The notes under the pieces are model-generated. The model saw nothing but the letters and a program-made list of their open reading frames with translations. It had not been told where the DNA came from and ran no database searches. Shown here piece by piece: positions 3,190 to 62,123 of a stretch of 64,000 nucleotides of DNA (its first letter is position 1; each line of letters starts with the position of its first letter). The stretch lies in contig NW_023601433.1 of NCBI RefSeq assembly GCF_014898055.3, positions 86,933,106 through 86,997,105 of the forward strand. Reading direction: 5' to 3'. Both the position numbers and the translations under genes were made by a program. The stretch comes from Talpa occidentalis. Lineage: Eukaryota > Chordata > Mammalia > Eulipotyphla > Talpidae.

Positions 3190-3310
3190 CTTCTGATGAC
3201 TGGAGACCTCGTCCCGGCTTCTCCCCAGCTCCTCGGCAAGTTTCACGTTCTCTTCTTGCAACGCTGAAAGCTGCTGGGACTTCTGAGCTGCTGCCTGCTT
3301 TAGGGTTTCT
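3190..3310 (-). CDS. CLIP1: CLIP1 exon 18: coiled coil, last exon in window
   Basis: This 121-nt exon completes the Ile codon and encodes [20 protein letters not shown] to [12 protein letters not shown] (residues to 1147 of the standard form). Acceptor TGTCCTTGCAG precedes 3310 and donor GTCAGT follows 3190, phase 0. The next known segment (LEEERSVLNNQL) is not found at 1-3189, so the remaining rod and zinc-knuckle exons lie off the left edge. Confidence 0.95.
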
Positions 3311-6300: not shown

Positions 6301-9300
6301 AGAAAGGAAACCTGGGCAGCCTGTTGCCCTGAGCTCAGCCTGGCTGGGAAGTAGCACTGGATTAGTGAGCATCTTTCCAGGCTCTGCTCATGTCATTTCA
6401 CACGCACCCCACTTCCATGCTAGATGATCTGATTACTCTGAAAATCAAGATTATTGGTAATCTTGAAAGTGACATGCTGTTTTTTTTCTTTTTTCTCCAT
6501 GGGAAGGGTTTTTTTTTTTTTTTCACGATTTATGTATTTATACAAGAACTGGGGTACAGTCAGAGGCATGGGAGGGTGAGAGAATCCACCAGAGACAGAG
6601 TAGGGAGCAGAACAGGCAGACGGACCAAAGACACTGCTGAGGGGAGCAGCAGGGAGACAGGAGAGGTCTGCCGTGCCATGCAGGAATCTCCCTGGCCAGC
6701 TGGGAATTGAATCCGCGCTGCAGAGGCTGCAGACAGCTTCACAGAGCGGCGCTCAACCCGCTGCGCCACCAGGGAGGCCCCTCCATGGGAAGGGCTTTGA
6801 GGGGTGTATTAATAAAGGGTGTGACTTTCCCAGCGTCAAGACCGGCTACTGGGCAGGTGCCACGGTGACAGGCTCCCACTTCAGTGCATGGTCCCAGGGT
6901 TCATGTGGCCACACACACCCCCCTTGTGTCCTGACCCATCACCAGGCTTATTTCACTTTGTTCCTCTAACATCTCTGTGTGGGAAGGGTGGGGGCGCTCA
7001 GGTCCGCAGGAGTATTTTACTTTATGTTCTTGTCAAGTGGTTCTTAAGTAACTGGCACTGTTCACTTTTGTGAGTTCCAACAAATTCCATAATTTCCCTC
7101 AAAGGAGCTCAACTTACATTTCTTTCCTGAATTCTTCCATTTTTTGATTCTCCACAGTCAGAAGTTCTTTGGATTTGTTCAGTTCTTCCACATTTTTCAA
7201 GTTGTTTTCTTTAAGTGTATCCAACTTAAAGACCAAGAGAAAAAGACTTGATGAAATTATTTCATTTTCCAAAGACAAGACTGGAAAGGCAAATTATAAA
7301 TGAAAATACATGTTAAAAAGGGAGGAGAAATGAGTTACTTGCAAAATCAAAATTAAAAGTCACCTGGGAGAAGAAATCACAGGTGACCAAATCTTTTATA
7401 AATTGCATTCCCTCCCCCTAACATTTAGTCAGGCAGCTCCTGTACTCCTGGCCAAAATGGCATGCGGAACTTCTACATAAATAAGCAGGTCCCGCTCACC
7501 TATGTATAATTAGCAATTTTCCAGTTGAAGCATCTTAAAAAAAATCCATAAATAATCAGCAAGGATTATTCTTTATAATGAGAAGAACCCCCTTTCTAAC
7601 CCACTTAAAAAATAATAATATGGTCTTGGGCCTCCCCTGGTGGCCCAGCGGTTGAGCGCTGGGCTGCAAGGCTGCCCGCAGCCTCTGCAGCACCTGTTCG
7701 TTCCCCGGTCGCCAGCGAGGGTCCCACAAAAAAAAAAATTAATAATAATACGGTCTTTTCCAACATTGGTACCAAATTTATATTGTCCTCATTACAAAAG
7801 AGATTTGAATGAGAAAAAAAGTAAATGGGAAAAGATTTAGTTATCCATTTGAACCTTGATCTGAAAAAGAAAAAGCCACATGTGAGACCGGAAAGCGCTC
7901 ACACCGCACAGCCCGTGGCCTCCTGTGGGGGTGCAGTGGCCGGAGGCCCAGCTCCTGGTGGGGAAGCTGGACCCGAGTAGGGGGGTGCAAGCCACCATGG
8001 GCTGCGGGGAGAGGTGGGGTTCCACGGGTGCTCCCCAGCTAGGTGTGGGTGTCCAGGGCAGGGGCGGCCGGGTCACCCTACTGGCCTCCTGGGGGATTTG
8101 TGCAGTTAGCACCTCAGGCGGGGCCACGTGTCACCAGTTAGGAGCCCAGAAAGGGCCTTAACCACCGTCTTCCTTTCAGTGCCCTTTCCCGTCCAGATTC
8201 AGAGTAAGAAAAACAAAAAACAATTCCTAAGAAAGACACTAAGGGGAAAATTATGGAAGTAGGTAAGACTCCACATTCTGTCCTCAGAGGTTAGAGACCT
8301 ACCCTCAAATCTGCTCTTCTACTCAAGCGGCCGCTTTATCTGTGTTTTTTTAACACTTTCCTATCTTTTCCTTACGCCGCCTTCTCTCATCCTACAAAGG
8401 TGCTCCTTTGCTTGTTAAGTTTTATTTACCTTACGGTTATCTCAAAATTTCATGCCTTTACAGAGTTCCTTCTTTGGCCTTCCGCAGTGAGAAGGCCTAG
8501 TTCCACGGGAGCTAGTCAGCGTGGCCGTGTCCTCGCTGGCTTTCCTTCCTCCATGTCTTACCTGCCTCGCACTTAAAAAAAAATGTCTCAAGTGCAAAAA
8601 ACTTCACACAACTATTTCAGCAAGTCAATCTGCTGAGCATGTAGCAGCAGCTTCCAAAGAAAGGGTCGCTTTGAGTTCAGAGGAGGGGGGGAGCGACCCA
8701 AGAACAGTACAGGGATGAGAAATGCCACTTGTGGATGGAACCAAAATTATCTTGATGCTGCAGATTTGTCTAAGACCCAAACGCGACTCAATCAAGATAA
8801 CACGGGAGGGAAGTGGTACTGAACTGGGCCTCTGTCGAGCTAGGGCTGAGGAATGGAACTCAGCAGCCTAATGCCAGGAGAAAGTTGAGGGGAAATAATG
8901 TATGTGACTTAAAATTAAAATTAAATTAAATTAAAATTAAAGCTACAGGAGCCGAGGCCATCACCAGCCTCATCAGCTCTACTGCCGAACAATTATCAGG
9001 GGACGTCACATTCTTAATGTTTCCCCCTCATTTTTAAAAGGTCTCTCCTACTAAGAAAGAAGGAAGTAATAAGCTTTATTTAATATTATCACGTTCTGGT
9101 GCACATTCGATTCCACTTGCATACACCAAACCTGCATGAGACTACGCTTCAAAAAATAAACAATCCTGAGTTAGTGATCAAATATTCCGTGGAGTCGATA
9201 AGCTGTCCTTCGTACAAAAAGCCATTTAAATCTGATTACTTCATTCTGCAGTTTTTCATTTGTTTGCTTGGAGTCCTCCAAGGAGGCCAGAGTTTCCGTC

Positions 9301-12300
9301 TTCTCTTTGGTCATCTGCTCCATTATCTGCAGGGCGTCTTCTGCTGTCTGAGCCGTCTGAACAGACAAGAAAGCACCGTGAGGATGGGGGACACCCCTCC
9401 CTGGGCTGCCGGGTGGGGCTCAGTGCCGGGGGGACCTGGTCACCAACCCCACCCCACACAGGACACAACAGGAAAGGCCTCTACTCTGGAGTAGAGCAAA
9501 ATTAGACCCTTCTCATGCCATTTTTCAGTGAGCCCACTGTAACCCATGCATTCAACACATTCTCCACCCTGCCTACACCAACATCCTCCTGGACAGGCTC
9601 CAAGGTCAAGCTCATCAGTGTCTGGATTTTCTCAAGCACAGTTAGAAGGCTGTTCTTGCCATTTTCAAATCTGAGGCTTTGGAAGTCACTCAGAATTCAG
9701 GTTTGGAATTTTTCAAATAGAATTAAAACTATTTGGGCAAATATTCATGTGGGGCTCAAGTGTTTCATGAGAAGCACTGAATGGAAGAGTCAAGAAGAGC
9801 TGTGGAGAATGAATATAAACATGGCTGTGAATAAGAAAGATAATGTGCATTTACAGACAAATCCATGTAGGAGAAAAATAATCATAAAAATAAATCACAA
9901 TCTTTTCAGGCACTTGCTGACAATTTCATGCAGTCAAATAAAGCTGATAGCAAGTCTGTGTTCCCTACTTACTAATGGAAGATTTCACAGGGAAAATTTC
10001 TACGCCAAATAGATACAATCTAATAATTAAAAGCCAATGAAAGATACTATGTTTTAATTTATGCAACAGCGCCCTGTCACCATTGCTCTTAAGCCTTTAA
10101 GAAATACAGTTGGCTTCTTCATGAAAATCTCTCCTTAATTAATCAAAAACTATATCCTTCTTATTCACAGTTTGCAATTCTTTTCCCAAACTACTGCAGT
10201 TAGCAATTTAGTAAAGAATTGCCCTTTCAAGTAGTAACAAACAGCTGGAGACAGGTAAGCGACTGATTAGATGGGGTGATTTCCAGGCATGGCAGTGAAG
10301 ACACACACCTCAGCCGCGGCGGTGTTAGTGTGTTGTTAGTAGTCGGGTGCTGTCTACCTGAACCTCCTACTTTACCGTAAATGAGTGAAGTGTCTCGAGC
10401 TCTCTAATCTTAAGAGTGAGCTTGCTCTTGTCTTTCCTCAAAATACGGTTTTCATTTTGAGATTCCAGGAGATTGGATGAAATGTGGCTGTTGGTTTTGG
10501 CCAGTTGGCTGATCTCCTTCTGAAGGGTGAAGTAGCTTTCGGCCAGCTTCTCCTTTTCCTTCAGAAGCTCATCCCTTCTCAGCGTCACTTCTCGGATCTC
10601 AGCCAGCAGGCTCTTGTTGTCCTGCACCACCTTGGCGCGGTCAGCCAGGGTCACCTCGTGGTTCAGCCGGAGCTCGTCCAGGATCTTGGTGAGGCAGCTG
10701 TGGAGGTCCTGCAGTTCCAGCTTGGACTTGGACAGGACAGCAAAATCACTTTTCAGCGTCTCTATATTGGCAGCAAGTTGAGCCGTTTCTGCACTCAAGA
10801 GTTCCTTCTCCTGGATTATCTCCACCACTCTCTGCTCTGATTTAGTCTTCTCTTGGATCAGTGTGAAATTCTCAGCCCGGAGCTCCTTAGTGCACACCCT
10901 TAGTTCTTCCATCTCCCGCTCGAGGAGCAACGTCCTCCCGTGCAGTTTATTGCTTTCAAACACAGATGCCTCCTTTTCCTTTGCTCTGGCTTCTTTTTCT
11001 AGGGCCAAGGATTGCTGCACTGCCTGCGTCTCCTCCTTTAATTTCTGACACTCTTCCTGCAGGTTCAACCCGTCCCTCAGCAAGATGTTCTTCTCGGAGC
11101 AGCAAGTCTTGAGTTCGGCTTGCAAGCTCTCCTTGGCTCTCACTACATTGGTGTGTTCCCTTTCCAGATTCTTTCTGGCATTCTGAGCCTCTTTCAGCAG
11201 CAGGGACAGCTCACACTTGCTGGCCGCCAGGTCCCGGTTTTCCTTTTTCCTCTCCTGGAGCTCTTTCCTCAGGGTGTCGAGATCACCCAGCAGCTTCATC
11301 TTCTCGTGCACGATGATTCTTCTGTTTGCAGACTCCAGATCATACTTCCTTCTGAGGTCTCCTACGGCTTTGATGGAATTTTCCCTCTCGCCAAGTAAGT
11401 CGCCATTATGCATTTCCAGTACAGACTTTTCTTTCAAGAGACTCTCATGCTGCCTTCTGAGCTTAGTCATTTTCTGGCAAACCATCTCCTTCTCAGAAGT
11501 GAGGTACGTGATCTTCTCGTTCAGGCTTACCTCCAGGCGGGCGGCCTCCTCGGAGCACTTGTTGAGTTTTTCCAAGATGAGGTGATTCTCACTGAGCAGT
11601 TCTTCTTTCTCCGCCAACAGCCTCCTCTCAGATGAGGCCAGGGTTTCTTTCTCATGCAAGAGCTGAAGGCACTCGGAGTCTGTGATCTCCCGGCTGGCCT
11701 TAATCTCCTCTAGCACCTTCGTGAGGCTGGAGTTGGTGGCCTGTAGCTGCAGCGCCTCCAGCTCTGCCTTCCTCAGCGCTTTGCTGCTGCCGTCCAGCTG
11801 GGCGCGAAGACTGGTGGCTTCCGTGCTGAGCAGCTGTTGAACCTGGAGGGCGGCCTCCAGGCTGGCGTTGAGTTTCTCCTGCTCTCCAAGCAGCACTTCC
11901 TTCTCAAACTGCAGGTCTTTGTTACTCTGAGCAAGACCGTCTCTTTCCCCCTGGAGGGCTGTGCACATGTGGTCAAGAGCCGATTGTCTCTCTAATGCTG
12001 ACTTCTTCTCGGCCGTGAGGTCTTCCACCTCCTGCACCAAGGTCTGCTGGTCTTTAACAAGCTCTTTGTAAGAGCTCTGAAGCTTCTCAATAATCTCGTC
12101 CTTATCTGTAGCCAAGGCAAGGTTTTCCTTGACGAGCCTCTTGACACGATCCTCCAGCTGACCCTTTTCTTCCCGGGCCTTCCTGGACTCAGCCATCATT
12201 TCCTCTTTGCTGCACCGGAGTTCTTCCACTAGCGCGTGCAGGCTCACCTCGGAGGCTCGCAGAGACTCATTCTCCACATTTATCTTTAAAAGTTCTTCCT

Positions 12301-15300
12301 GTGCACTGTTGATTTCTTCGAGTAGTCTCTCTCTCTCAACAGCCAAAACTTCTTTACTGAGCTGTTCCTGCTGATAAAGCTTTTCAGCATTTTGCCGTTC
12401 TTCTAAGACTTTCTCATTTTCTAAATTAAGAGCTTCATTCACTGACCACAGGTTCTGCTGGTCTTCCTGAAGCACAGTAATTTTGGCTTCCACCTCCATA
12501 AGCTTGGATAACAGTGAACCTTTCTCTAACTTTAAAGCATTGCCCTCCTGCGCCAGAAGCTGCTTCTCTGATTTCAGCCCCCTCAGCTCTTCTGCCATTA
12601 GTTCAAGCTCTTTTTTGGCTGATGTTAACAAATAGGTTAGCGACTACAGAAACAAAAGATGGAAAGAATGGAAACAAAAATGAAGTCAAGCAGACAAATG
12701 CAAGCCCAGGTAACTAATGTCACCTAAACTGTAACAGTTGAAAGATGTCTCACTAAATGTCACAGGAAACATCCGGACAAGGGAAAGGAACTGGACAGAC
12801 GGAGCTCACACAAGGACAATAAAAGGCATCTTTAGCTTTGCAAAGGGCTAATAATTGGCCTATTGGATACTTGAAACAGCTTCTGAAATTATTCCTGATA
12901 GGAGAAAAAGGCAAAGTTTGATTTTGATATCAGGGATAAGATTCTTTTCTGCCATTCCAATTATTTCATTACTTTGCTTATAGAAAGGATTCATAGCAGA
13001 ATTTTTAAAAGTACAATTCCAAGGCTTACAAAAAGTGAGTATGTTTTGACCCAAAAGAGGTGAGGGGGAGGGGACAGAAACTACCTGCAGGATCGCACCT
13101 GCCGGGCATCCTCACACACAGGTCTGTCAGCTAGGGTTGGCGACTCAACCTTCTTTTTCTTTTAAAAATGGATTAGTTTGGCAGTAGCTAGGCAGGATAC
13201 AGCCAGATTCACAAATCATTTAATAGTTGAGTTATCTTTTCAAAATGGATTGGCTTATAGAACAATGTAACCACAGTATCTAGACCAGTGCTATCCAGAA
13301 CTTTCCACAGTTATCCTGAAATTCTTTTTTTTTTTTTAAAGATTTATTTATACAAGAGCTGGGGCACAGGCCAAAGGTGCAGGAGGGTGAGAGGATTCAC
13401 CAGAGACAGAGTGGGGAACAGAACAGGCAGACTGATGAAATACACTGCTGAGGGGAGCAGTGGGCGAGACAGGAGAGGTCTGCCAGGCCATGTGGGAGTC
13501 TCCCTGGCTGGTCGGGAATCAAACCCGTGCTGCAGGGCTGCGGACAGCTTCACAGCACTGTACTCAACCCACTGCACCACCGGGGAGGCCTGATGCTGAA
13601 ATTCTTTATCTGCACTGTCCAGCATGGTAGCCAGGGCCACGGTGAGCACTTGAGGTGTAGTGAGGGGGGCTGAGGACCTGAATCTGTCATTTTATTAAAA
13701 TTTAACTGTCTTAAGTGGCCACCCTGGCTGGTGGCAACATACTGAACAGTAGAGCCACAGTCATTGGCTCTTAACTAGGGAATGTGGGAGTTCTGTGGGG
13801 TCCCAAGTCCCTGAAGTCTTACATGAAACTCGTTGAGGGTACACATGAACCACCCTGTTGGGGAGAACATTTGAAGGCCCATCAGTCTCAGGAGCCTGCG
13901 AGTCACTGCTGGTGACAAGCACTGAAATCCACAGAAACTATCTAGAGCACTTTGTGGGGTTCGGAAGCAGTCCTGGACTGTAACCAAAGGACCTTTGTCA
14001 AACCAACCAGAACCAGGGAGACTCACACAAACCACAGACAATGCTATGGCTAGTCAGGCTGCAACAAAAAACTGGACTCTGTCCAGACAAAAGAGAACCA
14101 CAAAGACAGGCCCTGGTGATTACATGCAGGATTAAGTGGCTTGTGAGCAAGACGTGGCATGGGGAGGAGGCAGCTTGATCAGCAGGAGCACGAGAGACAC
14201 GTGCAAGGCTCCCAGGGGCCGGGCGCCAACAAGACTGACTCAAGGCCCTGCGCTCCTGCTAAGCCTCTATGTAGACATTTCTCTGCCACATTAAAAGAAC
14301 GACCAGTATTTACTTTTCTTTAAGCAATAGGAGGTTACGTAGTCATGGGAGGCTTGAACTTCATGAAGCTACCAGAGTCAAAAAGCACCAGAGGGCAGAC
14401 ACCACCTGATGGACAGTGACACTCAGGATGCCAGCGTCTACTGTGCTACATGAGACTGTGCTCACAGTCCCTGAGCCCACTCCTGTCCCGTCCACAGTCC
14501 ACGGGCTCCGCACCCTCCCGCAGACACAGATGCCCTCTTGGAGGACGCACTTCTCACCCTCCTGCAAGAGCTCCGAGCCAGCCCAGCTCCCCTCCCTGCT
14601 CACAAGCTCACCCTGGTCTGGGCCTCTGGCTCCTCGGCCACCTGCCTCTCCTTCCGGCAGTGCAGGGGGTAGTGGGTGGGCCAAGATCAGGGAAGCAGAT
14701 TTTCTAACACAAAACCTGCTCCAGCATGCAGGCAGGCCCGGGTGCAGGCAACACAGACTGGGCGACAGCTGGAGACCGAGCAGCAGGGGCCGAGGGCACT
14801 CAGTGCAGCTCCTCCAGGACAAGGAGCTCTGGAGACTGACTCCCTCAGGACTCTCTGCTCCAGCCACTTAACTCTTGCCCTGTGCTGCTGCCTCCTCAGC
14901 GTCCCCGCAGCCCTGACGCAGCTCCAGCAGCCGTCCCGCAGCACCCGGCCCGCCCTGCTCCTACCTTGGCTTTATCGGCTTGTTTCCTCAGTTCCACCAT
15001 GTCCTGCAACAAGTTGCCGTTCTCCTCCTGGGCAGCCTTCAGCCTCCCCTCTGCGTCCAGCAGCGCCTTCTGCATGCTCTGCAGGGCTTCATCGTGCTTG
15101 GCCTTGGCCTCAGAGGTGGCCTCCTCATACCTGGCTTTCAGCTCCTGACACTGGGTCTGGCTCATTTCCATCTTCTTTTCCTGCAGTCCCAGATGGAGGA
15201 GTAAGCCGTGAGCCGCCACTGTCCGGCCCCTCGCCCCCTGGCAGCAGGCAGTACCATTTATTCTCTCCTTACCAGGTCCACCAACTTCTTCTGCAGTTCT

Positions 15301-18528: not shown

Positions 18529-21500
18529 CGCTCAGATGGGCTTCTCCTCAGGGTCAGATCGTCTCAGAAATGTGCCTGAGACACTGAACAGAGCGCTGCA
18601 ATGTTTTGAACTGGAGAGTGACCCCAGAAGCTGCTCTCTTGAAACCAGGCCTGGGTCAACTACTTCTTCAGCTGAAAGGCCCACTGCTCACCCACTGTCC
18701 CGGGTATTCTTTTCTGAACACGTTATGGGGCCAAGATAAAACCATCTCCTGATTTTCCTGTATGGATTCTGAGGTAGATACACCAAGGGAATTGTTAGAT
18801 GAGCACATGTAACTAACTAGGGCGATAAAAATGTGGGTGCACAGGCCACGGCTGCCCACCTCAGCAACTCCTCCAGCCAGACGTAGGCGGCTCTTCCCTC
18901 AGCGTACACAGAGATTTACGTAAACGCTCACTGATGCGTGCAAAACTGGGCATCTTGAAAGTTCGGGGAGGAGGGCAGAGAAACGATGGGGAACTCAGAA
19001 CACATTTTCTTAAAGGACAGCAAATCACAAAATGGTCATTTCCAGGCCAACGTTCCCCCTAAATGTAGCAAAGATTCTAAATACCAGAACGTCCAGCGGG
19101 GCTGCCCTTGAAGGCGGGAAAGCACAGCCACTAGCCACACGCAAAACGTGGCTGGTGCAGCCAAGGAGCTGAATCTTCAGGTTTTATTTTGTATTATTTA
19201 AATGTCTGTGGTCATAGGTGGACACTAGCGACCACGTCAAAAGCCAACATTTAAAAAAGTAAAAACTGGTAAAAGTGTCATTTAAATAAGAAAGAACCAG
19301 ACACTTCTCTTCACCTTTGGTGTTAGCACAGAAGCGCGGTGGGCGGGGTGGTGGTGGGGGGACAAGGCCAATGGCCTTCCCGGTCACGCTGCTCCCCCCG
19401 GTTCCCGCGGCCCACGGCTTCCCTGTGCACTGCCGTGTGGGTGTCCCTGGCCCTGCTCATGCCTGATGCAGGAGCCAGAAGGCTGAGAGCAGCTAAGAAG
19501 AAAATGTCTTAAAACACGGGGTTAAGTCATTTCCTGAGGTACAGCAGACTGTGCTGGAGGGCAGAATCCTTGACTTGTCCGACTCCGTCAGCGCCCTGCC
19601 TGCCCCATTCACAGGGTGGGGCGATCCTGCTCGGCCTGCTGCTCCTGTCGCCACGCGAGGAGGAGAAAGCACAGCTCAGGACCTCACTCCATGTGAGGCC
19701 CAGCCCCGTGACTGGATGCCCATGCTCGGCTACACGGAGCGGTCACTGCAGTGCCAAGGGCGCTGTCCCAGGCAAAGGGCAGGCCTGATGGAGCTGCACC
19801 TACCTTCACTGCCAGTGGGGGGTCCGACTGCCCCTGATGTACTCACAGCAGTGACCAGTGAGGGTACTTACTTTAATACTTTAAAGGAGAATGCAAAGCG
19901 CTCAGGTTTCCTTTCTTTACAGAGATTTTTCTCACCAGGAACCACTCAGCCAGGCAGCGCCTGCGCCCTGAGATTCAGACGCCCAGTGGGTACTCACCAA
20001 AACCTGAAGTTCTTTCTCCACGGCCTCCTTCATTTGGCTGGCGTCACTCAAGCTTTTCTGGAGGTTAGCAAGGGCCAGCTCTTTCCCCTGCAGCTCGGTG
20101 GTGACGCTGCTAGCCTACCCCAGTACATGGTAGCCAAGCAAATGAACAAAAGGAAACGAAAAGAATGAGGAAATAAAAAAAAAAAAAAACATGTAAAACA
20201 CGTATGAGAAACACACACAAACAAACAAAACTGAAAGGAATAAAGGCAAGAAGTTGCTGGGTTTTTCACACTTTGACAAGCCAGCGACTCCCCCAGTCAG
20301 TTCTAGATGGGCCTGTCTACGGATTAGTTGGAAATAGTTGGAAACATCAGCGCGACCTGAGTCAGAAAGGCTGTCTAGGACACTGACTTTCTAGGTGAGT
20401 GACCTGAGCGGTTTCCTCTTCCAGACTTTACACGCCGTCAGATGGGATCGGCAGGTACGTGTGTGTGGCCTGCACTGGCACTGTCTGTATTTTGTGATGC
20501 TTCAAGATTTCAACATTGAAAACAAAAGTCCTCTCAACCACTAGTCACCTGCGCTTTGCTTTCATTAAACCATGATGAAAAAAGCAGGCCAGCCGCTAGC
20601 TAGACATCCTCTCCTTACTGTGCTGTGTTTTGATTGGTATTTTGGAACCACGTGAGGAAATATGAGAACAATTTCCTGTAACTAGTTTCTGGTTACTTTG
20701 CAATTTTGGGCTGTTTGTCCTTCCCTCCATTAACCATCAGGACCTTTCCTACTCGGCCAAGGGTGCGGCTTCTCCCGCTGAAAGCTCAGAACTTTCACCG
20801 TCGATGGCCAGCAGGTCAACCAGCGGCAGGAGAGCTGGGAGCGTGCTCAATCCCCACACTCTCATCTTCCTTCCTTAAAAGTGAAGATGACAACAGGCTC
20901 TGTGATCAGAAGTGCAGCCCGAGTGCCTCCGACTGCTCCCTGATCAGAGCCCGCGAGCCCAGCCCTCAGGGGCAGGGGCAGCTCACAGTCTCGCCGGGCA
21001 CAGGAGAAACCCTGGTGCCACAGACGTGGCCGTGCAAAGGGCCCGAGGCTGGCCGCCTTGATTTTGTGGCCAATGCTACTAATCACCCCACGACTCAAGA
21101 CTCAGGGGGGAGACCATGCTCGCGGGGAAAGCCATGAGCAGCACCGAGCAGTTTGTCTCCACTAAATGTGGGATGTGAAGGATGAACTGCGTCAACTAAA
21201 GACAACACACGGCGCAAAATGAAAACGACACATGGAAGAGGATGGAGGGTGAGGGTGCAAACCTTGTCACTTGCAGCATCCTTTGCAGCCTCTAGATCCT
21301 TAATCTGCTTCTCGGCTGCCTCAAGCTGCTGCCTAAGTTTCTCCACTTCCGATTTACCTTCGGCACTGGCTTTCCGAAGCGCGTCAAGAGCCGAGAGCTT
21401 TTCTTCGGTGGCCTTGAGCTGGGATGTGAACTGGTCAATAACCTTGGTTTGGTCACCGCACTTGGCCTGCAGTACTTCTAGCTCCTTTACCTTTATCTCG

Positions 21501-24500
21501 GCTTCCTGTAGCTTGCTCAAGGTGTCCTCCATCTCCACCAGGTGCTGGTCCTCAGCTTTGTCCAGCTTGGACTTCATGGCCTCCAGGCTCTCCTCCTTCT
21601 CCCTGACGACCTTCATCAGCTCAGCCCTCAGTGCTTCCAGCTCGCCGGCGTGGGCAGACCTCTCGGAGTCTTGTTGGTTCTGCAGATTTTCTATTTCGTG
21701 CTGGTAATCCAGCCTCATCTTCTCTATCTGGGTCTTTAGCTCAGCAAATTCTGCGGCGTCCGTTCCCACCCCCTTGCTGAAGGATACCTTCAACTCCTCC
21801 ATGGCCTGCTGGTGGGATGCAATGGCCGTCTCCAGCTTGGACTTCCACAGAGCGATCACATCTGAGTTCTCCTTGTTGGCGTGGCCGAGCTTGCTTCTCA
21901 GGGACTCGTTCTCTTTGGAGAGCTTCTCTGCAGAGGCCTGAAGAGCCTTCATCTCCTTCTGAAGCGTTTCTTCCCGGGTTCCAAAATGCTCCTTCAGGGA
22001 AGTGACTTCTCTCTGGTGGTCAGCATGGGTGGCTTCCAGCTTTTCTTGCAAAGAGCGCATATCTTGCAAAAGGGTGAGTGACATGTCGACATCTCCAGCA
22101 GGTTTGCTGGATTCCAGCCTTCTTCGAAGCTCAGCTACCTCCTGTGCTCTCAACGCTAGGTCTTTTTCTAGTTCCATTATACGGGACTTTTCTGACACTG
22201 TAGCCACCTATTAGCAGTCCAAAGAAAAAGAGTTTATTTAGATAACAAGCCGCTGATGAGCTTCTTTAGCCTTGAAGCCCTCTGACTCCCGCCTGTCTCA
22301 GGTGGCGGAGGCCTCCGCAGCGCCCAGGTGATAGCCAGGCTTGCAGGACGACCCGGCTTAAGCCCAGGTCTGGGAGGACCAATTCACAATCATACTCTTT
22401 GGCCAACCTCCACCACTGGGGTATGCTAAAGAGTCTAAAACCTGATACTGAGTTTAACTCACTCCTAAAAACATTCCTTTTTCCTCTAAAGAAGCTTAAG
22501 TCAAGGAAGCACCCATTAACTCATAATAACAAACAGCAGCTGTGACATTCCCAGAGTGACCGACCTCCTGGCACACTCCTCCCATTTCACCTGCTGCAGC
22601 CCCACCCAAGGTGCGGAAACATTTGTCTCTCCAGTGGAGGCGGTGCTGGCCAGGGCTCTCGCGGCTGCCGAGCCCTCGGGTGGGCTCGCCTGACAGGCCA
22701 CATGCTGGGATGCCACAGGCTTTGAAGACTTAGGGGAAAAGACAAAATATCTTGCTGATATTTATTTTAGATATACTGTTTTAAAGGAAATGCATTAAAT
22801 GTACCTGTTTCTTCCTATTAAAAGTGTGTGCCGCTGTGGGCACGAGAGGCCAGGGCACACGCTGGGGGCTGGCAGGGCCACCCTGTGGCGGCTGCAGAGG
22901 CACCTCACTTGGGTCGTGAAGAACTGACTCAGCGACCGTTTTTAAAAATGATGAAGGAAGAACGGCTACTTACCTGCAGTGCTCTGGGAGTCTCACACAG
23001 AGGCCCCCTAGTCTGACAGCGCCGGCATTCTGCGCAGCGGGTGCCTCTACCCTGAGTCTCGGGCTCCCGTCCCGCTACACCCACAGGGGACCCGCTCTTC
23101 CTAAACACCAGGGCTAGAGGGTGCACTTTGCCTGTGCCCTTTCGTCCTTGGGATATGACTCCCTCTGCCACCTGTGGGCAGGTGTGTATGGGACGTGGTG
23201 GCCTCAGGCAGGGGAATTCGTTTTTTGACTAACCTGAGAAATAGAAGGGAACATGAGCGACTCACACCAGCGAGCCCCAAATGTGAAGGCTCAAAACCCG
23301 CCCTGACTCGGGGCTCCTCTCCCACACAGCCCTGCCAACCGGCTTCTGCCGCCCCCGCAGCACAGAAACGCCGCAGCGTCCGCAGGAGGACAGAAAGGGG
23401 AGCGCGCGGCCTTCCCCACACCACAGCACCCAGTCCCCGAGTGTCTCACAGCTCATCTAAATCTCGTGTTTCCGGGGAATCGGTGTTTCCAGTTAAAGCT
23501 GCTAATTTATTTACATACTTTTTCCTGGGACAGGGGAGTCCAAGAGTTTGTTACCCCCAAAATAAGATACAGAACATTAACAAACTCCATCCAAGGCCCG
23601 TGACATAAATTAAACTCAAGAGGGCAGCAGTCCTTAATTAGCCACAACCAAACAGTAAGGTTGAGAAAATACCAAGCGAGAATCACAAGCAACGGGGCTG
23701 GACTTCGGGTGACATTTTGGCAGCACTGCCACTTTTTATTCTCTATCCGAGCACTGCGCCCGGGGTCTGCCGTTGAGGTGGGACATCCTTTGTTATTCTT
23801 GCTAATGTCCCCCCAGCACTAAGCACACCCCAATAAACTGGATGAAATGGCTTAGAGGACGCCCACGCGCTTCCTAGAAAGGAATGCAGGGAAAACGAAA
23901 CTTCTACAGTGGGTGACTGCTGCGTTTCACACTTGGCAAACCAGGAGACTTTTGAGGAAGACATGGCTTCTTACGGAAATCTGAAATGTCACACATGGCA
24001 ATTAAGACGTCCATTGTTGAGAAAATGAAAAAAAAATCTCAACTATCAATACTTGAGGAGACGAAGCTGTGAATGGAGGCTTTCTCACAGCGAAAAAAAG
24101 CAGGCACTGAATTGTTTGCTGGCCGAAGCTATACGGGAGAGGAGTCCAGACATACCAAAAAAAAACCCCAAAACCCTTATTTCAACAGCCAGTGAGACCA
24201 GTGGAGTTCAGCTTCTTAGTCCCTTGTATTTCCCAGACCCAGCCTGGCTTTCGGGCGAGGGAGGGACAGACCAGGTTTTCCCCTTGCCAAACACACAGCC
24301 CTCGCGGCAGACTGAGGGCTTCTTCTTTCTTGAAAAAGTAAAAACTTATGATTTAGAGAAGAAAAATGACTTGACTACCTAGTGTTTCAGATCAATGATT
24401 TCTCGAGAAGAGGAATTTCGACAATTATTACTAATAGTAATAATTCGAAACAAAAGAAATCAGGATAATAAATTTGATCAGAGAGAATAATTTTTGAAAT

Positions 24501-27500
24501 TTTAAAGAATGTGCAATTAAGCCATTGATAGTCAAACTAATGATTGAGAAAACATATGCACAAATATATGTCTCTTCTTGTATGTAAATGACTCAGCTTC
24601 TCTCTTAAGTCATTCAGCAAAAGCTACTTCTGCCACCGAGAGCCCCTACCCCGTGGTGGTGGAGCACACAGCCCCTGCCGCCAAAAGGCCTAGGCAGAGA
24701 TTCTGGCTCCAGTGTTCCTATTAGCTGTGTGGCCTGGGGTAAGTTACTTAGCCTCTCTGTGCCTTAGTGTCCTCATCTGGACAACGAAAACAGTACCACC
24801 GCCTCCTCGGAGGGCTGGGACAGGACCGTGTCAGCTAACACCGCACGGCGCCAGGCTGACGGCGCGCTCCGTGCGGGCTGCGACATACAAGCAAGAGTGG
24901 CGAGGGGACTGGCACCTTGTCTCCGCGGGCCGGGCATGGAAAGGGGGGTGTGAGGAGCCATCTGTTCCCTGCACGCGATCCCTCCTGACCCTGAAACTTT
25001 TACCCACGTGAAAGGAGGTAAATGCAGAGATCGGGTACCAAGGGAAAAGGGAACTTGGTGACGTCACCTTTAACTCTTACTAAAACAAGTCAGGGTTTCC
25101 ATCCCCTTCCCTGACCCAGGAGGCCAGGAAAGGTGGCAGGAAGAGAGCGCTGAAGTGGGACAACAGCAAAACAGTATTTAGAAACCCAGTGAGCGGCTGT
25201 GAGGACAGGAGGACACTGGCAGCGCGTGGTGAGCTGGAGAAACGCATCGCAGGCATCCCAGGGGAACTTCCCCGCGTGTGGCCAGGATGCAGTGCAGCAC
25301 ACGGCTGACAGGATTTCTGGTCTTGGCTTCGGTGGAGTCAACCAAAGGGATGGTCTTTACCTTCCAAAATACTTGACATCGCACACCTGCGCCTACCGTG
25401 AGCCTCCACTCACGAGCACCTGAGCAGGAGCCAGACCAGACTCCGACTGAACCACTGGGTCAGGCTCAGGCCAACAACAGGGCACGTGACCCCGGGGGTC
25501 GGCCACTCACAAACACGGCTCTGCTTCATGAAATAGTGAAAACCATTACCCTAGTGTCTTCTAACTCCCTCTGGAGTTTGTCAGCTTTGGTCTTTTCAAA
25601 GAGCAGGCTCTGTTCAAGCTCCTTAATGCGGGCATGCTCCAGTTTGGTCTGCGTCTGTTAGTGAAAAGGGAGAGGAAGAGAAGACAACAGTGCCACCGTG
25701 ACGTGCCAGCAGAGGAGAGGGAGCAGCATGCAGGCTGAGCCGCCAGCACCTTCCGCCAGAGGAGGGGCCAAGGGCCGAGGAGGGTGGGGGACAGAACCGA
25801 GATGGCGAGGCTGGGGGCGAGGATGGAGACGAGACGACGGGTGAGGAGGGCTGGGACAGGAGCTAGTCGACTGAGAGGAAGATGGACACACGCGAGGCAA
25901 GATGGAGTGTCAGGTGCATGCAGCCAAACACAAGTTATCTTGATAAGTGAAGTTTATCAGCACGAATTAGAACAGTTAATATTCCTCTAAACTATCATTT
26001 CCCCCCCTCCCCACCATGGCTGTTGGACATTAATGTGTATGTAACTGACTCGGTGAGTTAAAAAGTTGATCCACCCTCAAATTCATCATTGTTATCACCT
26101 GCATATGGGAAAGATCATCTTTTGAGTGCTCAATATGTCCCTTGCACTTTGGCACACAATTTGATATGAACAAGGGGCACGTATTAAACCGGGCAAAGGG
26201 ATTCTGGAAGCCCAAGCTAAGGAAACCCACCTCACCCTTTGCCGAGACAGGTGAGAAGGAGCTGAGATTCTCAGCAACAGCCTCAGAGAGGTCAGGCCAG
26301 GAGGCACTAAAGCTCTTAATTTCCTTCCAGTTGTGGATTTTCTGAAGACTATATCTGTCACCAGAAAAGAGGAACAAAAGGGACTCATACAAAAAGAAAA
26401 GTCAGTAAAAATTGTGCTCAGCTGCCGCCATCACTGAGACTCGGAGAAGGAGGAAAGCCGAGCTCGAGCTGGCAAGGGCGTTGTCCTGACCCTGCGGGGG
26501 TCAGACGCGAGCTCAGACGTGGGAGCGGGGACTCGGCAGAAAGGCAGGAGCTTGAACTCCAAGCAAAAAGAGCTGGTAAGATCCCATTGTCTTCGAGCCC
26601 CTCCACCCCCCCGACTCCCTATTACCACTTACTGAGATGTAGACTGATGAAAAACCCAAAGGCCCTCTCTTTCCGATAGATTTAGGGGCAACAGAACTGT
26701 ACACTTTGAAATAATCTGGATTTTGGGTTGAAAGTACCTCTTTCCCTACTCACCCCTCTGGAGGTTGCAGCAAATTGACTGATAAAACCTGTTGACAGAA
26801 CTGCTCCCAGCAGCACCCTGTTGCTGGTTTTATTCATTCATTTACATAGTTTGTGGTTCTAAGTGGTCAGGTCTCTCTTGTGGACACTCATGAGCAATGG
26901 GGAATCTCCACAAAGTCTAACTAAAACCACAAAGCCGTGCCGGGCTGACGCGGAAGGCTCTGCCCAGTCCCAGCGCTGGGAGCTGCAGTGCGTTCAGGTC
27001 GCTTTGCGCATGAATCAGGTATAACTCATCATGGAATATTTAACAGAAACAAATAAAAATGTAAGTTCTTCCCCTGCTGCAGCTTTTTACACTCACCAAA
27101 ATTTATGACAAAAATTCCATAACCTAACTGTCTGGGCAGTCCCCTTGCTCCACAATGTACCTCTGACAGCAGTTGTTCAATTTACCTGCTTTTACTACAA
27201 AAAAAAAAAAATACATCCAACCCAGATCATCATCACCGGGTCACAGTCTCAAGAACTGAAATCCAAAAGAGCAAAGAGCAGAAGGGAGCCGACCCTTTCC
27301 TCTCCCAGTGAAGCTGCACTCAGTGTCCCCTGGGTGAAGGTCACCACTTTTGGACAAAAAGCAAACAAACACTGGAGGACTGCAGCCCGGTCTGTCTCGG
27401 GACCTGACGGTGAACGAGGCTGGGGGCGCAGGCCTCCTCAGGGGTGCAGTCCTCCTCGAGGGCTGGGGGCGCAAGACAACCCTGCTCTAACACCTCCTTT

Positions 27501-30500
27501 CTTAGAATAAGACAGAGGGAGGAAAAGCCTGGGGCGGGGACTGCAGAGGGAAGCAGAGGCCCGGGAAGCGCAGAGAGGCGAGGGCAGCCCATGCACAGAC
27601 ACCGCAGCAGCCCTGCCTGGGGGGAGGAGAGTTGGGGTGGGGAGACCAGATCACTGAAGGAGCTTCACAGAAAGGAGGCTTGTTTCACAAGCTCGGTCTT
27701 CAGCTGTCTAGGGCCACTGCCAGGAGGTGGCAGGGGGCGTTCTTTGCCGTGCTTTTGTTCTCTTGCGATGGCAAGTCAAAGTGAAAGGCTGCGAGGTCCC
27801 TGCTGTTGGATCACAGCTAGCCGGGCCCCGGGGTGGGATTTGAACTTAACCAGAGGGAGGAAGGAAAAGAAAAACAGCTACCTAGTGGCACTGTATTTAG
27901 AAAAATCTCTTCAGTCACGACAAATTTAAAACACACAATGTCTTCCCCGAAGAACGCTGCGACTCTAACTTCACAAACAGGACTCTAACTTCACACACCA
28001 GCAGCAGCGCGAGGAACGGCGCGTCCCGGCGGCTGTAGTGGCGGGCACTGACCAGCCGAGGGCGCGTGCACAAAGGGCACAAAGTTGCTCACGGGGTTGC
28101 ACCTTGACAGCTTGGGGAAACTGAGTCCTGGGATTTCTTAAGCCCTTCACCTGACATGCTTTGTGCTTAAGTCAACTATCACCTCTTTTGGAGGGATTCT
28201 ATTAAAATTAGAAGGCATTATGAATTAAATGAAGGCGGCTAGGCGCCCCCCTGAATTTTTTTTTTCATTTTGGCAAAATTCTTTGTAAGTCAAACACTTG
28301 CCAGTGCATCAAACAAGTGGACTTAGTGAGCTTAGTCATTACAATTTCTTCGAGATTCAACTGTAATTGCTTTGAAAGCCACATGCACAGAAATAATAAG
28401 GTCAAAGTCTCCAGGCCAGGTGATGCAGTTAGTAATTGTATCAATAAGCGCTGTAGTCTGTAAAATCTGTGTTACAGGGGAATGTCCACACAGTGAAGTC
28501 CCTCTTACATTCTCAGGATCTTCAGAAATCTGGCTCTTTTGCTATCAGTAAAAAAAATAAAAAAATTAAACAACAACAAAAGACTCAACTAAAGTTCCAG
28601 TAAGTGTTAGGGTTTCAAAATAATTTTGATTAGTTCAGGTAAGTTGACCAGACAGACTATACTAGTCTAGTGTTGATGTAAGTAAATATCTGAACATGTC
28701 CCTCCCCAGACACCACGAGGCTGTATTTCATATGAATTAGATGCGGCTATGAGACTTCTAATGAGACTCTGGGTGTTTAAAAATGGATGAGAACAACACA
28801 GGAGTCAAGTAAAGGAAAGTGACCGTGTGGGAGATGAGCGAGGAGATAGCTGTGACAGTACTGAGCACCATTAAATTCTGGGCCTTATGAAGCGCAGACC
28901 CAGAAAATGTTTCGCTTACTCTTTGTTAACTGCGTATTTACTTTCAAAGAAATGACAACTGTACTTGGCAGGGCTCTTGAAAGTTAAGCCTGGTGTGGGA
29001 GGACTCTATAAAGGCGGCAAAAATGTGTATTCTGAGACAGCACAGACAGGTGCAATTTTTACTAAAACACTGCAGATTAAAGTACCAAAACCCCACAAAA
29101 TTTGAAAAATGTAGTAATTTACATGTGTCATATATCTGGCAGTGGTTTGAAAAGCATCAAAACCATTGAATTTGGGTGTCTAATTAAAATTATTAAAGTA
29201 AACAATTAAGAGATGAGAAGTTTAAAGTTAAAGGAAAGTCTATGAATTTAATATCTATGGTGTGGAAGGAAAAGAAACTGAAACATAAGTTGCTATTTTT
29301 TTTTCTGGTAATTCCTTTTAAAAGCTCAACTACCAGAACATACATGTGCCCCTTGTACAGGGTAGTAAAGGATTTATGCTTTTGCTGGAAGCAAAGCTGA
29401 AATAAAGCAAAAGTTTTTGTTTTGGACCATTTGGACAAAATAAGAAATGCTCTTTAACATGCCATTTCCGATCACCAGCGGCACGGCGGTCTCGCCTGCA
29501 GCATACTGCCAGATCTAGGACTTGATTAACCCCAATTTGTGGTTCTGAATCGGGAGGGGAGAGAAAGGGGCCATGGAAGGAGCTGGCGCCACCGGGCGGG
29601 CACAGGCACCGTCGGCTGCTGCCCCCTCCACAGCCTGCTGTGACACACGCACCAGTGGGCACAAGGCTCTCATCCATATGTCTGGGTGTGGCACCCACAA
29701 AAGCTTTCCCGAGCTGGAGGGGTTTTACCTCAAGGTCGCCTTTAGTGATGGATTCTTCCTCGACCCGGAATTGAAGGTCCTCAACCTTCCTGTGGAATCA
29801 AATCAAGACAAAACACTTAAGAAATCAACTAAGGGACACACCTGCCTTACAAAAAACAAACAAAAAACTACAGAAACAAAATAACAAAACTATCATCACA
29901 GTGTGGTGGACTTAGCTGATGATGGTGGAAAGAAATTGTCTTAGAGACACAGAAAATAAAGAATGCATCTCTGGGCCTCTGCTCTGCAGACCCGAAAGTA
30001 CGACACTGCTCAGGACGCGCCAACGTCAGAGCCAGGTACTGACTCCAGGAGGTATGAGCCGAGAGGGGTGAGTTGCCAGGCCCTGGTTGCAGCCACAGAG
30101 TAGATCTAAGCAACAGACCAGCCTGGAGGAAAATCTCTGATCAACATGTGTCATGTATCTGGCAGTGATCTGAAAAACACCGTGTGTGAGTCAAGTCCCT
30201 CATTTCCACCTGCAATGACACGGCATAGGGGAAAACAGCCTAGAAGACAAATCTCCTACCACCCACATCAGGGGCTGAGAAGAGACGAGCAGGCACACGC
30301 GCAGAGGCCCTTGCCTGAAAGCTCAGAGCAACCCCCGCGCCAAGATTGAGGGGAAGCCTGAGCTTGATGTGGGGGAGAAACAACCAAAGGCTATCTCTGC
30401 TTCTGAAGTTCACATCCCCTGATTCAGACCCCCCGATAAGGGTGTGGGTTTCAGTCAACACCATCACACCGCCACGAAGTACACGGTCGGGGAGTTAGAT

Positions 30501-45500: not shown

Positions 45501-48500
45501 CCCACACGCTCGCCTTAACAAAAACTTAAAAACCAGAACAAGGGCATCCCTGGTGGCACAGGGGTTAAAGACAGTGCTGTCAAGGTATCACCAGCCACTG
45601 CAGCACGAGTTCAATCCCCGGCCAGCCAGAGAGCAACCCGCATGGAGCAGCAGACCTCTCCTGTCTCCCCGCTGCTCCCCTCAGCAGTGTGTTTCAGTAG
45701 ATCCACCTGTTCTGCTCCTCACTCTGTCTCTGGTGAGTCTTCTCACCCCCACACATCTGGCCTATACCCCAGTTCTTACATGCATAAATAAATAAAGCTT
45801 GGGCCTCCTTGGTGGCATAGGTGGTTAAGTGCTGCACCTCCCCCTGCAGTGACCTTTAGGGCTAACCATCCCTAGGTCCGGCTGGGCAACCAGCGCGCAG
45901 GGGGAGAACAGTAAAACCCTACATACCTGCTGCACCTCCCCCTTCAGTGACCTTTAGGAATGGCTTTCACCATGGTCCCTAGGTCTGGCTGGGCAACCAG
46001 CCCGCGGCGGGAGAACAGCATAACACCCTGAAGCAGAGGAAGTGCAGCGGAAAAGTTCCCTGAAAAGACAGAAGCTTATCAAAAGATAACGACCACCAGG
46101 AACCACTACAAGAATGCTAAAAATCTTATCCCCTCTTTCTAGAACTACAAACTTTAATCCCTTATTGTCTTTCTAAACTTCCTTCTTTCTTCTATAAAAG
46201 TCATTGCTTGTTATGTAGATCACCTCCCTGACGGTGATAGACTGAGCCCATGAGCAAGCTGATTTCATTGATATTCTTTGTCCCTGTGCTTTTGGAAAAC
46301 ATATATATACTGGTCACAAACTCAAAGAAAATTACACTCAGATTTTCACTCTTGAAGTGTGTCTGTTTGTCATTTCTTTCACCGACGCCCTGACCACCCT
46401 GCACGCTTCTCTCAACCCTGAGGTGGCCTCATCGTCTACTGCTGTGCTGGTCCGCGGCAGTTAAGCACAGCACTGTGACGCTGTCTGCAGCCTCTGCAGT
46501 GCCAGTTCGATCCCTGCCGACCACAGAGCAGCCCACAGGGCGCAGCAGACCTCTCCTGTCTCCCCGCTGCTCCCCTCAGCAGTGTATTTCAGTCAGTCTG
46601 CCTGTTCTGTTCCCCACTCTGTCTCTGGTGAATCCTCTCACCCTCCCGCACATCTGGCCTGTACCCCGGTTCTTGTATGCATAAATAAATAAATCTTAAT
46701 AAATAAATAAATAAATCTTTTTAAAAAACCCACAGAACAAGATACTACCTTTTTTTTTTTTTTTTTAAAGATACTTCTTTAAACACAGCTAAAGGCTGCT
46801 TTGGCAAGGAAAATTACCCTCATATTTATAAGTTGAAAGTTCAATATTCTTTGGGCTTGACTGTAGCTGAACTAGCGTGGGCCATGCAAGCCCACGTTGG
46901 CAGGCATGGCGGGTCTGCAGTCGGCCCTGTGCTCACACAGACTAAACTAGGAAAGTGGGTTCTCGCCCCACAGAGGACTGGGTTCCTCCTGTACAGGCCC
47001 TAAACTGTGTGCCAGGCTCAGCCCCAGGCCGCTGACGATCTCAGCCCTGCCCGCCAGCCGCGAGGCTTCTGGACTCACCAACACTCTGTCTCCGATTTTG
47101 AGCTCTCGCTCTCCCTTCTTGATTGAGCCGGCCTCGGAGAGGTTGGAGATGGACTCGCTGGCGGTTTTTGTCAGGTTGCTCATCTGCGTGGGAGCTGGAG
47201 GCTCCTTCGGGGCTGGCTGGACGGGTTTGTGGGGCGTGCTCGCGGGAGTGGCCGGGGAGGCGCTGGGAGCGGGCAGAGGCGAAGTCCCTCTGGCCGCGAG
47301 GGGCATCTGCAGGCCGTTGGCTTCATCTTCGGCTTGCACCTTCCTGGTTAGCTTCGAGGGCCGGGTGAATATGCCCTTTAAAGGTTCGCACTGGAAGTAA
47401 CGAACTCCGGCCACCGAGCCGTCATTCTTGCCAATGGGCTCGTCTAAGACAATCCCAGCCCACTGGCCTGGTGCAAACTGGGTTTCTCCAAGAAACTGGA
47501 TAAATCCAGGTTTATTGCCATTCACCCAAACTCGCTCCCCAACTCGGAAGTCATCCACAAATTCCTCTTGTGTCTCAGAGACTGGAATGCCCGACGCTTT
47601 CTCACTGGACACGGTTTTCTCTACTGGAGCTGCAACTGAACACAGAGCAGGGGGTCGGAAAAGATGGGTCTCCTACCCAAGCAGACACCGCCTTCCCCAG
47701 AGGAGCAGGAACTCGAGGAAATGAAAAGCGGCCTTCTAGAGATGCTCTGTTTCTCTCTCTTTTGTGAACAAAGTGGTAAAAAAAAAAGCACTTCATCCAT
47801 TGCCACACCAAGTCAAACTGCTCGCTGATGCCCTGACTCGAGGACTTCATGTTCGAAGGGGTGCACGTGAAAACGGCCGATGAGAAAGACAAATCTAAAT
47901 CAGGAATGAGAGAAACAGGGAAGGCTCCGAGGCCAGGCTGGTATCTGAAGGGGTCTTAAGAAGAGGAAGGAGGGGCGGGAAGGAGATTAAGGGGTGCCTT
48001 TTCTGCCCGCCCGCCCCAAGGTCACAAAGCCCTTTCTTCACAGCGTCTCTCAGTAAAGCTTTCCTCCCCTCTACGATGTCTCGGGGTGTCTCTGATCGGC
48101 ACCGGCTATGTCCTGACATGTAACGTGTAAGTCACGGGGGGCGGTCACTCCATCAACAAGTATTTACTGTGCTCCTGCCCTGGGCCAGGCCGGTGCTCTA
48201 GGCACGGGTAAAAAGGAGCAGCAAACACCAAAACCCTCAAAGCTCCCTGCTGTCGGGTAGGCCAGGGAGTGACTTCAGGAAGAACCTGAGAAAGCCCGTG
48301 CTGACTCGCTCCTGTCAGGAAACGCCTGGCCACCTGGAGGGGTGGCTAACAGAGCCAGCCGTGCGCAAACCGCACAGAGGGAGCCGAGAGCAAGCACCAG
48401 ACACCCTCCCCCCAGCTCACTCACAGAAGATGCAGGGGGTGTAAACTGAAATGGGGGCGGCGGGGAAGGCACAGGGAGCGTGGGTTCATCTGTACAGCGG

Positions 48501-58484: not shown

Positions 58485-60959
58485 TGATAGGTACTGCCCC
58501 TCAGAGACTAGGTGTTTAGATATTCTCACGACCCGACACAGCTAAAAAAAAAGAGCAACAGGCACCAGGGCAAGGCAGTCCCGACCATGGGCAAGGATAG
58601 CTCCATCAAGGTATGTCTGATCTTGGGCCTTGAGTCCTAAGTAATTGATAACACAGAGAACCACATCCAATTACTTCACACTGCCTGGTGCTACAGCTAC
58701 ACTGCCACAGAACGAAAATGTTTATTTGCAGGGAACAGGAATACTGACAGCAAATTATACAGCGAATAGAGCCCCTGGATAACTGCATGCCCAGCCACAC
58801 AGACACGCTCCTGCTCTGCCGCTGAGCATCCGACCTGCCTGGGCTACTTCCAAAACCTTTCTTATCATCATATACTCTTTCTCAGCAAAATATAGAGGGT
58901 CTAAGGTCAATGTCGACATTTTATCCATAGAAGCTGCGGGAAAGTCAGCATGAATCTAGCAATATGAGACAACCCAGTACCTCCTCATGGTGTCTGCAGA
59001 ATAGGGCCAGGCTCACCTCAGGTCCTGTCAGAAGCAGGGCACACATTTTAACAACCCTGGCTGTGAGGTCACGATGATGACATCACAACAGGAATTCTGA
59101 CGTGCGTCAGTCTCCAGGGTGCAACCTCACTTGAAAGAAATACCAGCCAGCTCTGCGTCCCTGAGCTGGCGCTGACGGCAGAGATGAGAAACCACCCTCC
59201 CGCTCACCCGGTCAGGGCCCTTCTCCACCGCCCACCAGCAGCAGCCAAGCAGGTGAGCGGAGCAAAGGCACAGCCTCCTCCCAGGCCTTCAGCTCACCAC
59301 CTGAGGAGGGATCTTATTTACTTCAAGTTTACAAGTTTTTATTTCAGCTTAGTTTCAAAAACCTTTCCTTAGGAATCTCTCGGGAAAATTAAGCCACACT
59401 TAAGAACTCTGAAAACTGAGTAGGAAGAAACTCACGAACTTCAAATGTTACCTGCTCCTGCCTTGCTGCCCTGATGTACTTGCTAGCGTCAGCAGCCTCG
59501 ATATTTATTTACCGAGAAGTGAGGATTATGATGTATAAGCGCCAAGTTTGTTTCAAGAACCCCAAAAGTGGCAAGCCTCATGGGGCTGACCACCTTGGCT
59601 AAAAAAAAGTGAAATTGCTAGACTGTTGTTCTTTTCTCCCTCTTGTGAGTTTTGGAGTTTGCAAACTGGCACAGAATAAGAATTGGTGAGATTTCGCTAT
59701 TTCTAGGCAGTTAAACATTCTTAAATTGGTAGGAAATGTAACAAAAGTGAGTAATTATCTCCCAGTGAAGGAATTATTGGTAGTTTTTATAGCCACTTTG
59801 TGTTTCCTTACATTTCTCAAATTTTATTTAATGAGCATGTATAATTTCATAAGCAGGAAAAGAAATTTAATGATTTCTGAGCCACAGTAAAATGGCTTCA
59901 ACCAGAGTGAGCTGCTTTGTACTTTACACGGGACACGCGCACAGCCCAGCCAGGCAGGCCGGGAAGAGGGTGCGCGCCTGGGGCTCACCAACCTGTTCCT
60001 GTTCTTCTGAGACCACTTTCCCGGCCCCATCGTGGGCACGTGACTGACATGGGGGTGCCTGTGCTTCTAGGCCCAGCCCACCAAACCTTCATGAGTGCCA
60101 GCCCTTTCGCTCTAAGCCCTTCAGGAGGCCTGGTGGGGAGGAACCTCAAAAGCTGGGACAGAGGATGGTGGGCGCGCAGCATGGAAGCCACCTGGACCCC
60201 AGCCTCTCCTCCCCCACCCCTACCAGGAAGTCCATTCCCCGCTCCAGGATCAGCTGTTACTCATTTATGTCACTAAAATTCGTGGGCTTTGTTACAGCAA
60301 GTGGTTTATCTTGCTACCATGGAAAGAGAGAACAATTTTCTTAGCGCTTTGGAGTCATCTCAGCTGAGGAAATTGCACAAAGAAAATTTGGGGTATGTGC
60401 ACCAGAGATAGAAACGCTTCACCGCAGAATGTCTAATTACATAATAAAGCACCCTAGTTTCTTAAAAGCCAAAGGACGGTTTACTGGCAGGAGCAAAAGA
60501 TGTTCAAAAAACACGCCAAGTTTGATGAAGGCCCTGAACACACAGACACAAACTCAGGAAAGCCTGGCGAGGGAAGGCCTGGCGCTCCTCTCACCTCGGT
60601 GCCAGGAAATTCTCTGTAGCAACTCTCCATAAAAATTAACATAATTCTCCATAATAAATAGGTTTTGTGATGAAAGATGTCAGTAAAACCCAAGCCCCAC
60701 CTTCTCCGTCGCTCATAACCATAAAAGCTCAAGTCACAGAGGTTCCCCACAGACCCGGTTCGTGCTGTTCTGAAAGCTGTGTTCGCGCGACTGGGGATGA
60801 TGCGCTTCATAATTTCTGTATCTCGAGGTTTTATTCACTCATTTTTAAAAAGCTGGGCCAGTTCTGTTTTACTATCATAAAGTTCTGTGGCTTAAAAACA
60901 CCAAAGTATAAAAGGGCCAGAAATGAGGCCCCCGGATTGGCCCCAAGGACGACCTGAGG

Positions 60960-62085: not shown

Positions 62086-62123
62086 AGATCATGACATCAG
62101 CGGGGCTACGAGGCTTTCTAGAA

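Follow-up and report, generated by a model that had tools for sequence, protein, structure and literature searches.

A giant coding cassette exon in the CLIP1 gene of Talpa occidentalis, very probably orthologous to the exon described in human and mouse

CLIP-170 has two short alternative inserts of 11 and 35 residues, familiar from restin and the chicken muscle isoforms, and in chicken these short inserts are linked to muscle. By the title of Akhmanova's 2005 work, the protein is said to be on the spermatid manchette and to be essential for spermatogenesis. A far larger segment of the same gene is described in passages of PMC10901741 (Nature 2024), which report giant protein-coding cassette exons, including one in CLIP1/Clip1 of human and mouse. 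The mouse Clip1 exon is called spermatid-specific there, and SAFB proteins are stated to repress it in other cells; they bind the long purine-rich exon, compete with SR proteins and keep it out of the mRNA. In post-meiotic spermatids SAFB falls and the giant CLIP1 form is expressed during spermiogenesis. Inclusion is reported both in mouse spermatids and upon SAFB loss, and overexpression of SAFB1 in N2A cells lowers splicing of the Clip1 exon, which implies some inclusion outside the testis (PMC10901741). According to the same passages, SAFB-repressed giant exons contain over 33% adenine (MAPT excepted) and purine-rich enhancers, and they are also found in ANK3, ANK2, MAP2, MAP4, MAPT, NIN, MPRIP and NASP.

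We analysed a stretch of 64,000 nucleotides from T. occidentalis, referred to here as the window. CLIP1 lies on its minus strand, with the start codon at 48988; the last CLIP1 exon found within the window ends near 3190. Exons were placed by tblastn with an approximate human CLIP1 protein sequence, and the junctions were refined by script. The joined model of 18 exons contains no stop and encodes 1,172 residues without the giant exon and 1,928 with it. The modelled end of exon 4 (36060) is wrong, since a donor is present 30 nt beyond it, and the query of the long-protein search described below lacks these 10 residues; the giant exon is unaffected. The exons that matter here are the following.

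47079..47635, minus strand: CLIP1 exon with the first CAP-Gly domain, which marks the identity of the gene
28509..28541 (approximate ends), minus strand: possible 11-residue alternative exon, from a weak match to the dingo model at 28541-28503
25550..25654, minus strand: 35-residue CLIP1 exon, by tblastn a clear counterpart of the known 35-residue CLIP-170 insert
21263..22207, minus strand: large rod exon of 945 bp, used as a yardstick for comparison
14965..15180, minus strand: upstream rod exon, ending ...RKQADKAK, phase 0
10376..12643, minus strand: giant CLIP1 cassette exon, 756 codons, phase 0/0, coiled-coil-like
9240..9356, minus strand: downstream rod exon, starting TAQTAED (corresponding to the AAQTAED of CLIP1), phase 0

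The first CAP-Gly domain is assigned to exon 47079..47635 by its usual position in the protein; PF01302 is listed for homologues of the long CLIP1 protein. The 35-residue exon is presumably the restin exon, which is alternative in CLIP-170, and in four of the 20 models in the species comparison this region of the rod is shorter by 35 residues. The 11-residue candidate depends on one short match of the dingo model (84.6% identity, E 0.50). Both short inserts resemble the giant exon in being alternative, in frame and within the same rod, but they measure only tens of residues, lie earlier in the rod and are not giant. A further insert of 31 residues follows human residue 1147 in the dingo, ground squirrel and rabbit models (P0043, P0048, P0064); with the dingo and ground squirrel models as queries, no counterpart was seen in the window among matches of >60% identity. 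By eye, the intron upstream of the giant exon holds a tRNA-type SINE-like element with an A-rich tail (about 13594-13330, minus strand). At 60896-62170 both strands carry long open frames whose translations look GC-rich, which may mark a CpG island at the 5' end of CLIP1. No Rfam family matched the whole window at gathering scores.

The giant exon comprises 2,268 bp, or 756 codons free of stops in the CLIP1 frame, with AG (12645-12644) directly before it and GT (10375-10374) directly after. It sits exactly between the rod exons at 15180-14965 and 9356-9240 with whole codons at both junctions, and the CLIP1 frame is intact whether it is skipped or included (phase 0/0). Its translation contains 0 proline, 135 leucines and 123 glutamates, and the remaining five frames of the stretch carry 18-44 stops each. 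GC content by codon position (0.58/0.30/0.64) resembles the values for the constitutive rod exons (0.61/0.30/0.64). A chance open frame was ruled out by simulation: when 2,000 sequences were drawn from a dinucleotide-Markov model of the exon, none was open throughout, the longest open run being 221 codons. The preliminary description had pointed to a proline-free frame of this length, with phase 0 on both sides and placed between two coiled-coil CLIP1 exons, as one that could not be kept by chance, and each of these points was confirmed. Homology is a stronger argument against chance than the Markov, frame and composition tests, since 34 related frames share 69-78% identity with the exon and annotated long CLIP1 isoforms carry the insert at the corresponding position. 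Within the genome from which the window comes, the only match to the exon was the exon itself. With the exon as query, neither Pfam (E≤0.01) nor the PDB sequences (E≤0.001) yielded a match, and no relative turned up in the viral contigs scanned.

These relatives come from a search of about 5.8 billion proteins, from which 7,990 candidates were scored and 39 retained, namely 34 at 69-78% identity, four at 37-40% and one at 27%; several of the 34 are near-duplicates, so that this number is not a count of species. Few of the relatives bear species names, one of the four at 37-40% being named as Lonchura. All the closest frames are open and 33 of the 34 cover 93-99% of the exon (P0035 covers 66%), in a search which favours long open frames and hence under-samples broken copies.

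With the long CLIP1 protein as query, scored on residues 1032-1832 at E≤1e-20, we obtained 81 proteins, 77 of which are named CAP-Gly domain-containing linker protein 1; several isoforms per species are present among them. Long isoforms were found in mammals (hyena, dingo, Rousettus, ground squirrel, mouse, chinchilla, guinea pig and rabbit) as well as in birds including chicken, boa, axolotl and frogs. Those predicted in databases have about 2,050-2,220 residues, with 2,126 in mouse isoform X9. Together with the human and mouse exon reported in PMC10901741, this supports the long isoform of roughly 2,200 residues that had been proposed for this locus.

Twenty-seven of the 81 long proteins were compared with the window. 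All 27 share one starting point for the insert: in 17 of 17 mammal records it begins with SLTYLL after DKAK or a close form (DKAK^SLTYLL), and in boa, birds and amphibians its first residues there are SLT or SLS. The upstream CLIP1 rod is joined to the insert in every one of the 27 and the downstream junction is present in 23, the exceptions being the fur seal and Saguinus models, which read on past the donor, and two Peromyscus models, which stop inside the exon. The insert of mouse X9 (P0053) aligns with the giant exon without gaps and with the same junction, 551 of 756 residues being identical (73%). A tree of 17 exon proteins groups the Talpa exon with that of Rousettus, at a support of just 0.20. 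A search seeded with the axolotl protein added a Polypterus protein with 226 of 743 residues identical across the insert and unclear borders. From sequence comparison, the amphibian inserts appear to be related to the mammalian giant exon, and that of Polypterus probably is. The search proposed beforehand, for the translated exon at CLIP1 in other vertebrates, thus gave long isoforms in mammals, birds and a snake and related inserts in amphibians. Teleosts were not seen among the named matches, which is not evidence of their lacking the exon because the search depends on shared 5-residue words.

Some of the retrieved models have peculiarities of their own. The Peromyscus models P0073 and P0075 end after 480 residues of the giant exon, by an assembly fault, a frameshift or truncation, and a third model (P0074) shows the same 63% coverage. 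The frog inserts (P0115, P0116, P0118, P0121) have 906-920 residues, about 150-165 more than the mammalian ones. Three frog records of about 3,100 residues (P0118, P0121, P0123) combine a long CLIP1 with a Sec1-family domain (PF00995), one record of this size being labelled 'protein lava lamp'; this is perhaps a gene-model fusion with a neighbour, which we take to be VPS33A.

We conclude that the exon in the window is orthologous to the giant coding cassette exon already known from CLIP1, with a probability of about 0.88. Within CLIP1 it follows the exon that ends ...DKAK and precedes the one that starts AAQTAED (TAQTAED in Talpa), is homologous to the mouse insert over its full length and keeps the frame. 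This analysis directly shows the open frame, both junctions, the annotated isoforms with homologous inserts and the deep conservation. The text passages of PMC10901741 name the Clip1 exon without coordinates, and we infer that it is the one seen here because the long mouse isoform, set against the human CLIP1 query, contains no further insertion of more than 11 residues.

The Talpa exon resembles the giant exon of human CLIP1 and mouse Clip1 in gene, cassette type and great length. It differs in its adenine content, which is 31.7% rather than >33%; its expression and SAFB control are predicted from those reported for human and mouse (PMC10901741). At this adenine content we do not file it as a shown member of the SAFB-repressed group. 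The motif GAAGAA occurs at 4.4/kb in the giant exon, 0.3/kb in the flanking introns and 3.1/kb in the constitutive rod exons. There are 10 copies in the giant exon as against about 4 in synonymous shuffles (one of eight motifs, uncorrected), and AGAAG occurs 29 times in the rod exons as against 17.7 in shuffles. Purine-motif density is high but about equal in the giant exon and the constitutive rod exons, with a similar excess in the latter, and composition does not single out the giant exon. By their description, the exons of ANK3, ANK2, MAP2, MAP4, MAPT, NIN, MPRIP and NASP are likewise giant, coding and often tissue-restricted, and many are in cytoskeletal genes (PMC10901741); the CLIP1 exon differs from them in adding coiled-coil-like sequence to a coiled-coil rod.

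A restriction mainly to striated muscle, heart or brain, with testis secondary, would be in keeping with the tie of the short CLIP-170 inserts to chicken muscle. Other giant exons offer a parallel, that of MAP4 being used in muscle and heart and that of ANK3 in neurons (PMC10901741). We nevertheless regard such a restriction as unlikely, since the Clip1 exon itself is called spermatid-specific and is linked to low post-meiotic SAFB (PMC10901741). The preliminary description had proposed a tissue-restricted form to be sought in muscle, heart, testis and brain; the restriction is upheld, for spermatids and in mouse, by the passages of PMC10901741, which lend nothing to muscle or heart.

The splice sites of the giant exon are as follows.

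12644..12669, minus strand: acceptor region, ending TTTTGTTTCTGTAG, 86% pyrimidine at -25 to -4
10370..10375, minus strand: weak donor GTAAAG, with the non-consensus base A at +5

The acceptor, described beforehand as strong, is good: its pyrimidine share of 86% is the joint highest, tied with two other CLIP1 exons. The donor had also been called strong, and this did not hold. ACG|GTAAAG lacks G at +5 and scores 1.25 bits by an approximate donor matrix, the fifth lowest of 17 CLIP1 donors; by the same matrix, 10 of the other 16 score >3 and four fall below it (exon 4, with its mis-modelled end, was left out of the ranking). In the 34 homologous frames the common sequence reaches ...T and is followed by two residues, after which the frames stop or part. 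The residues read through at this point are TVK in 32 frames, TVN in one and TVT in one, and from the codons the base at +5 would be A in 33 and C in one, and G in none. This divergence past ...T is the mark left where a gene finder reads through a splice donor. A conserved weak donor would fit a regulated cassette exon, which often has one.

Indels were compared in 20 species, leaving out the Peromyscus models that end inside the exon. The insert is free of indels in 11 of these, including nine of 14 placentals at exactly 756 codons, and its identity is below that of the upstream rod in all 27 compared proteins (73% versus 83% in mouse, 42% versus 70% in chicken). This near-fixed length and lower identity indicate an insert that is constrained, but less so in sequence than the constitutive rod, and to judge by the alignments it drifts faster. 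Four of the seven placental indel events are exactly -7 (Sturnira twice, Suncus twice); these heptad-size changes carry no weight, being possibly shared by descent. The lower identity, the weak donor, the fur seal and Saguinus models running through it and the two Peromyscus models stopping inside the exon might also be expected of a relic, formerly coding, now rarely or never spliced in and open by inertia. We consider this very improbable in view of the open frame in the 34 closest relatives (from a search biased to open frames), the constant length in most placentals and the inclusion reported in mouse spermatids and on SAFB loss (PMC10901741).

A separate nested gene or pseudogene, to which automatic names of isolated frames ('GRIP and coiled-coil domain-containing protein 2-like' in Otolemur, 'trichohyalin-like' in Lonchura) and their predicted starts at an internal Met might point, is less credible still, given that the common sequence of the 34 closest frames stops at the donor and diverges soon after, that 27 of 27 long proteins join the insert to the upstream CLIP1 rod and 23 also to the downstream rod, that the exon is in phase 0/0 with this rod and that it has no Pfam (E≤0.01) or PDB (E≤0.001) match of its own.

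An AlphaFold2 model of the insert, built with 18 sequences, has a mean pLDDT of 72.8 and a pTM of 0.23, and predicts helices at 6-255, 309-484 and 570-755 (612 of 756 residues) separated by two low-confidence gaps. Heptad-like hydrophobic periodicity exceeded the 95% shuffle level in eight of 26 windows of the insert as compared with 15 of 24 of the upstream rod; the period was 3.44-3.56 in all positive insert windows, and the weakest region lies around 505-616. Given the gaps and the weaker periodicity, an unbroken coiled coil through the whole insert is not established. A coiled coil rises 0.1485 nm per residue. The added rod would thus measure at most 112 nm, or about 91 nm if the modelled helices alone are counted, so that the extension of about 110 nm suggested earlier stands as an upper bound.

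If the window exon is the orthologue of the known CLIP1 exon, it would be skipped in most cells, giving the usual CLIP-170 of about 1,430 residues, and its inclusion would insert 756 coiled-coil-like residues into the C-terminal third of the rod and bring the protein to about 2,180 residues, an increase of about half. Alternative, spermatid-enriched splicing in Talpa is predicted from the mouse report (PMC10901741). The same SAFB and spermatid switch as in human and mouse may operate, eased by the conserved weak donor. In the long form the CAP-Gly heads at the microtubule ends might then be joined to the C-terminal zinc knuckles by a longer tether, and such a tether would serve manchette work and the shaping of the sperm head.

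The giant CLIP1 exon is already known, in print (PMC10901741) and from database predictions, and the Talpa exon is a further orthologue. The additions made here are modest, namely the spread from mammals to amphibians (probably to Polypterus), a length that stays nearly constant although the sequence drifts faster than that of the constitutive rod, and the conservation of the weak donor. These patterns are absent from the passages of PMC10901741 and may be in print elsewhere. More speculatively, and with the odds somewhat against it, the exon could be an ancient module of bony vertebrates, ranging from mammals to amphibians and probably reaching Polypterus. Its length and heptad register would be preserved even as its sequence changes faster than the rest of the rod, and it would hence be a sperm-stage spacer with the conserved non-consensus +5 donor position as a built-in off-switch. 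If the giant isoform is the form at work in spermatids, conclusions based on the short form would need re-examination, and the exon would be a clean target for an isoform-specific test.
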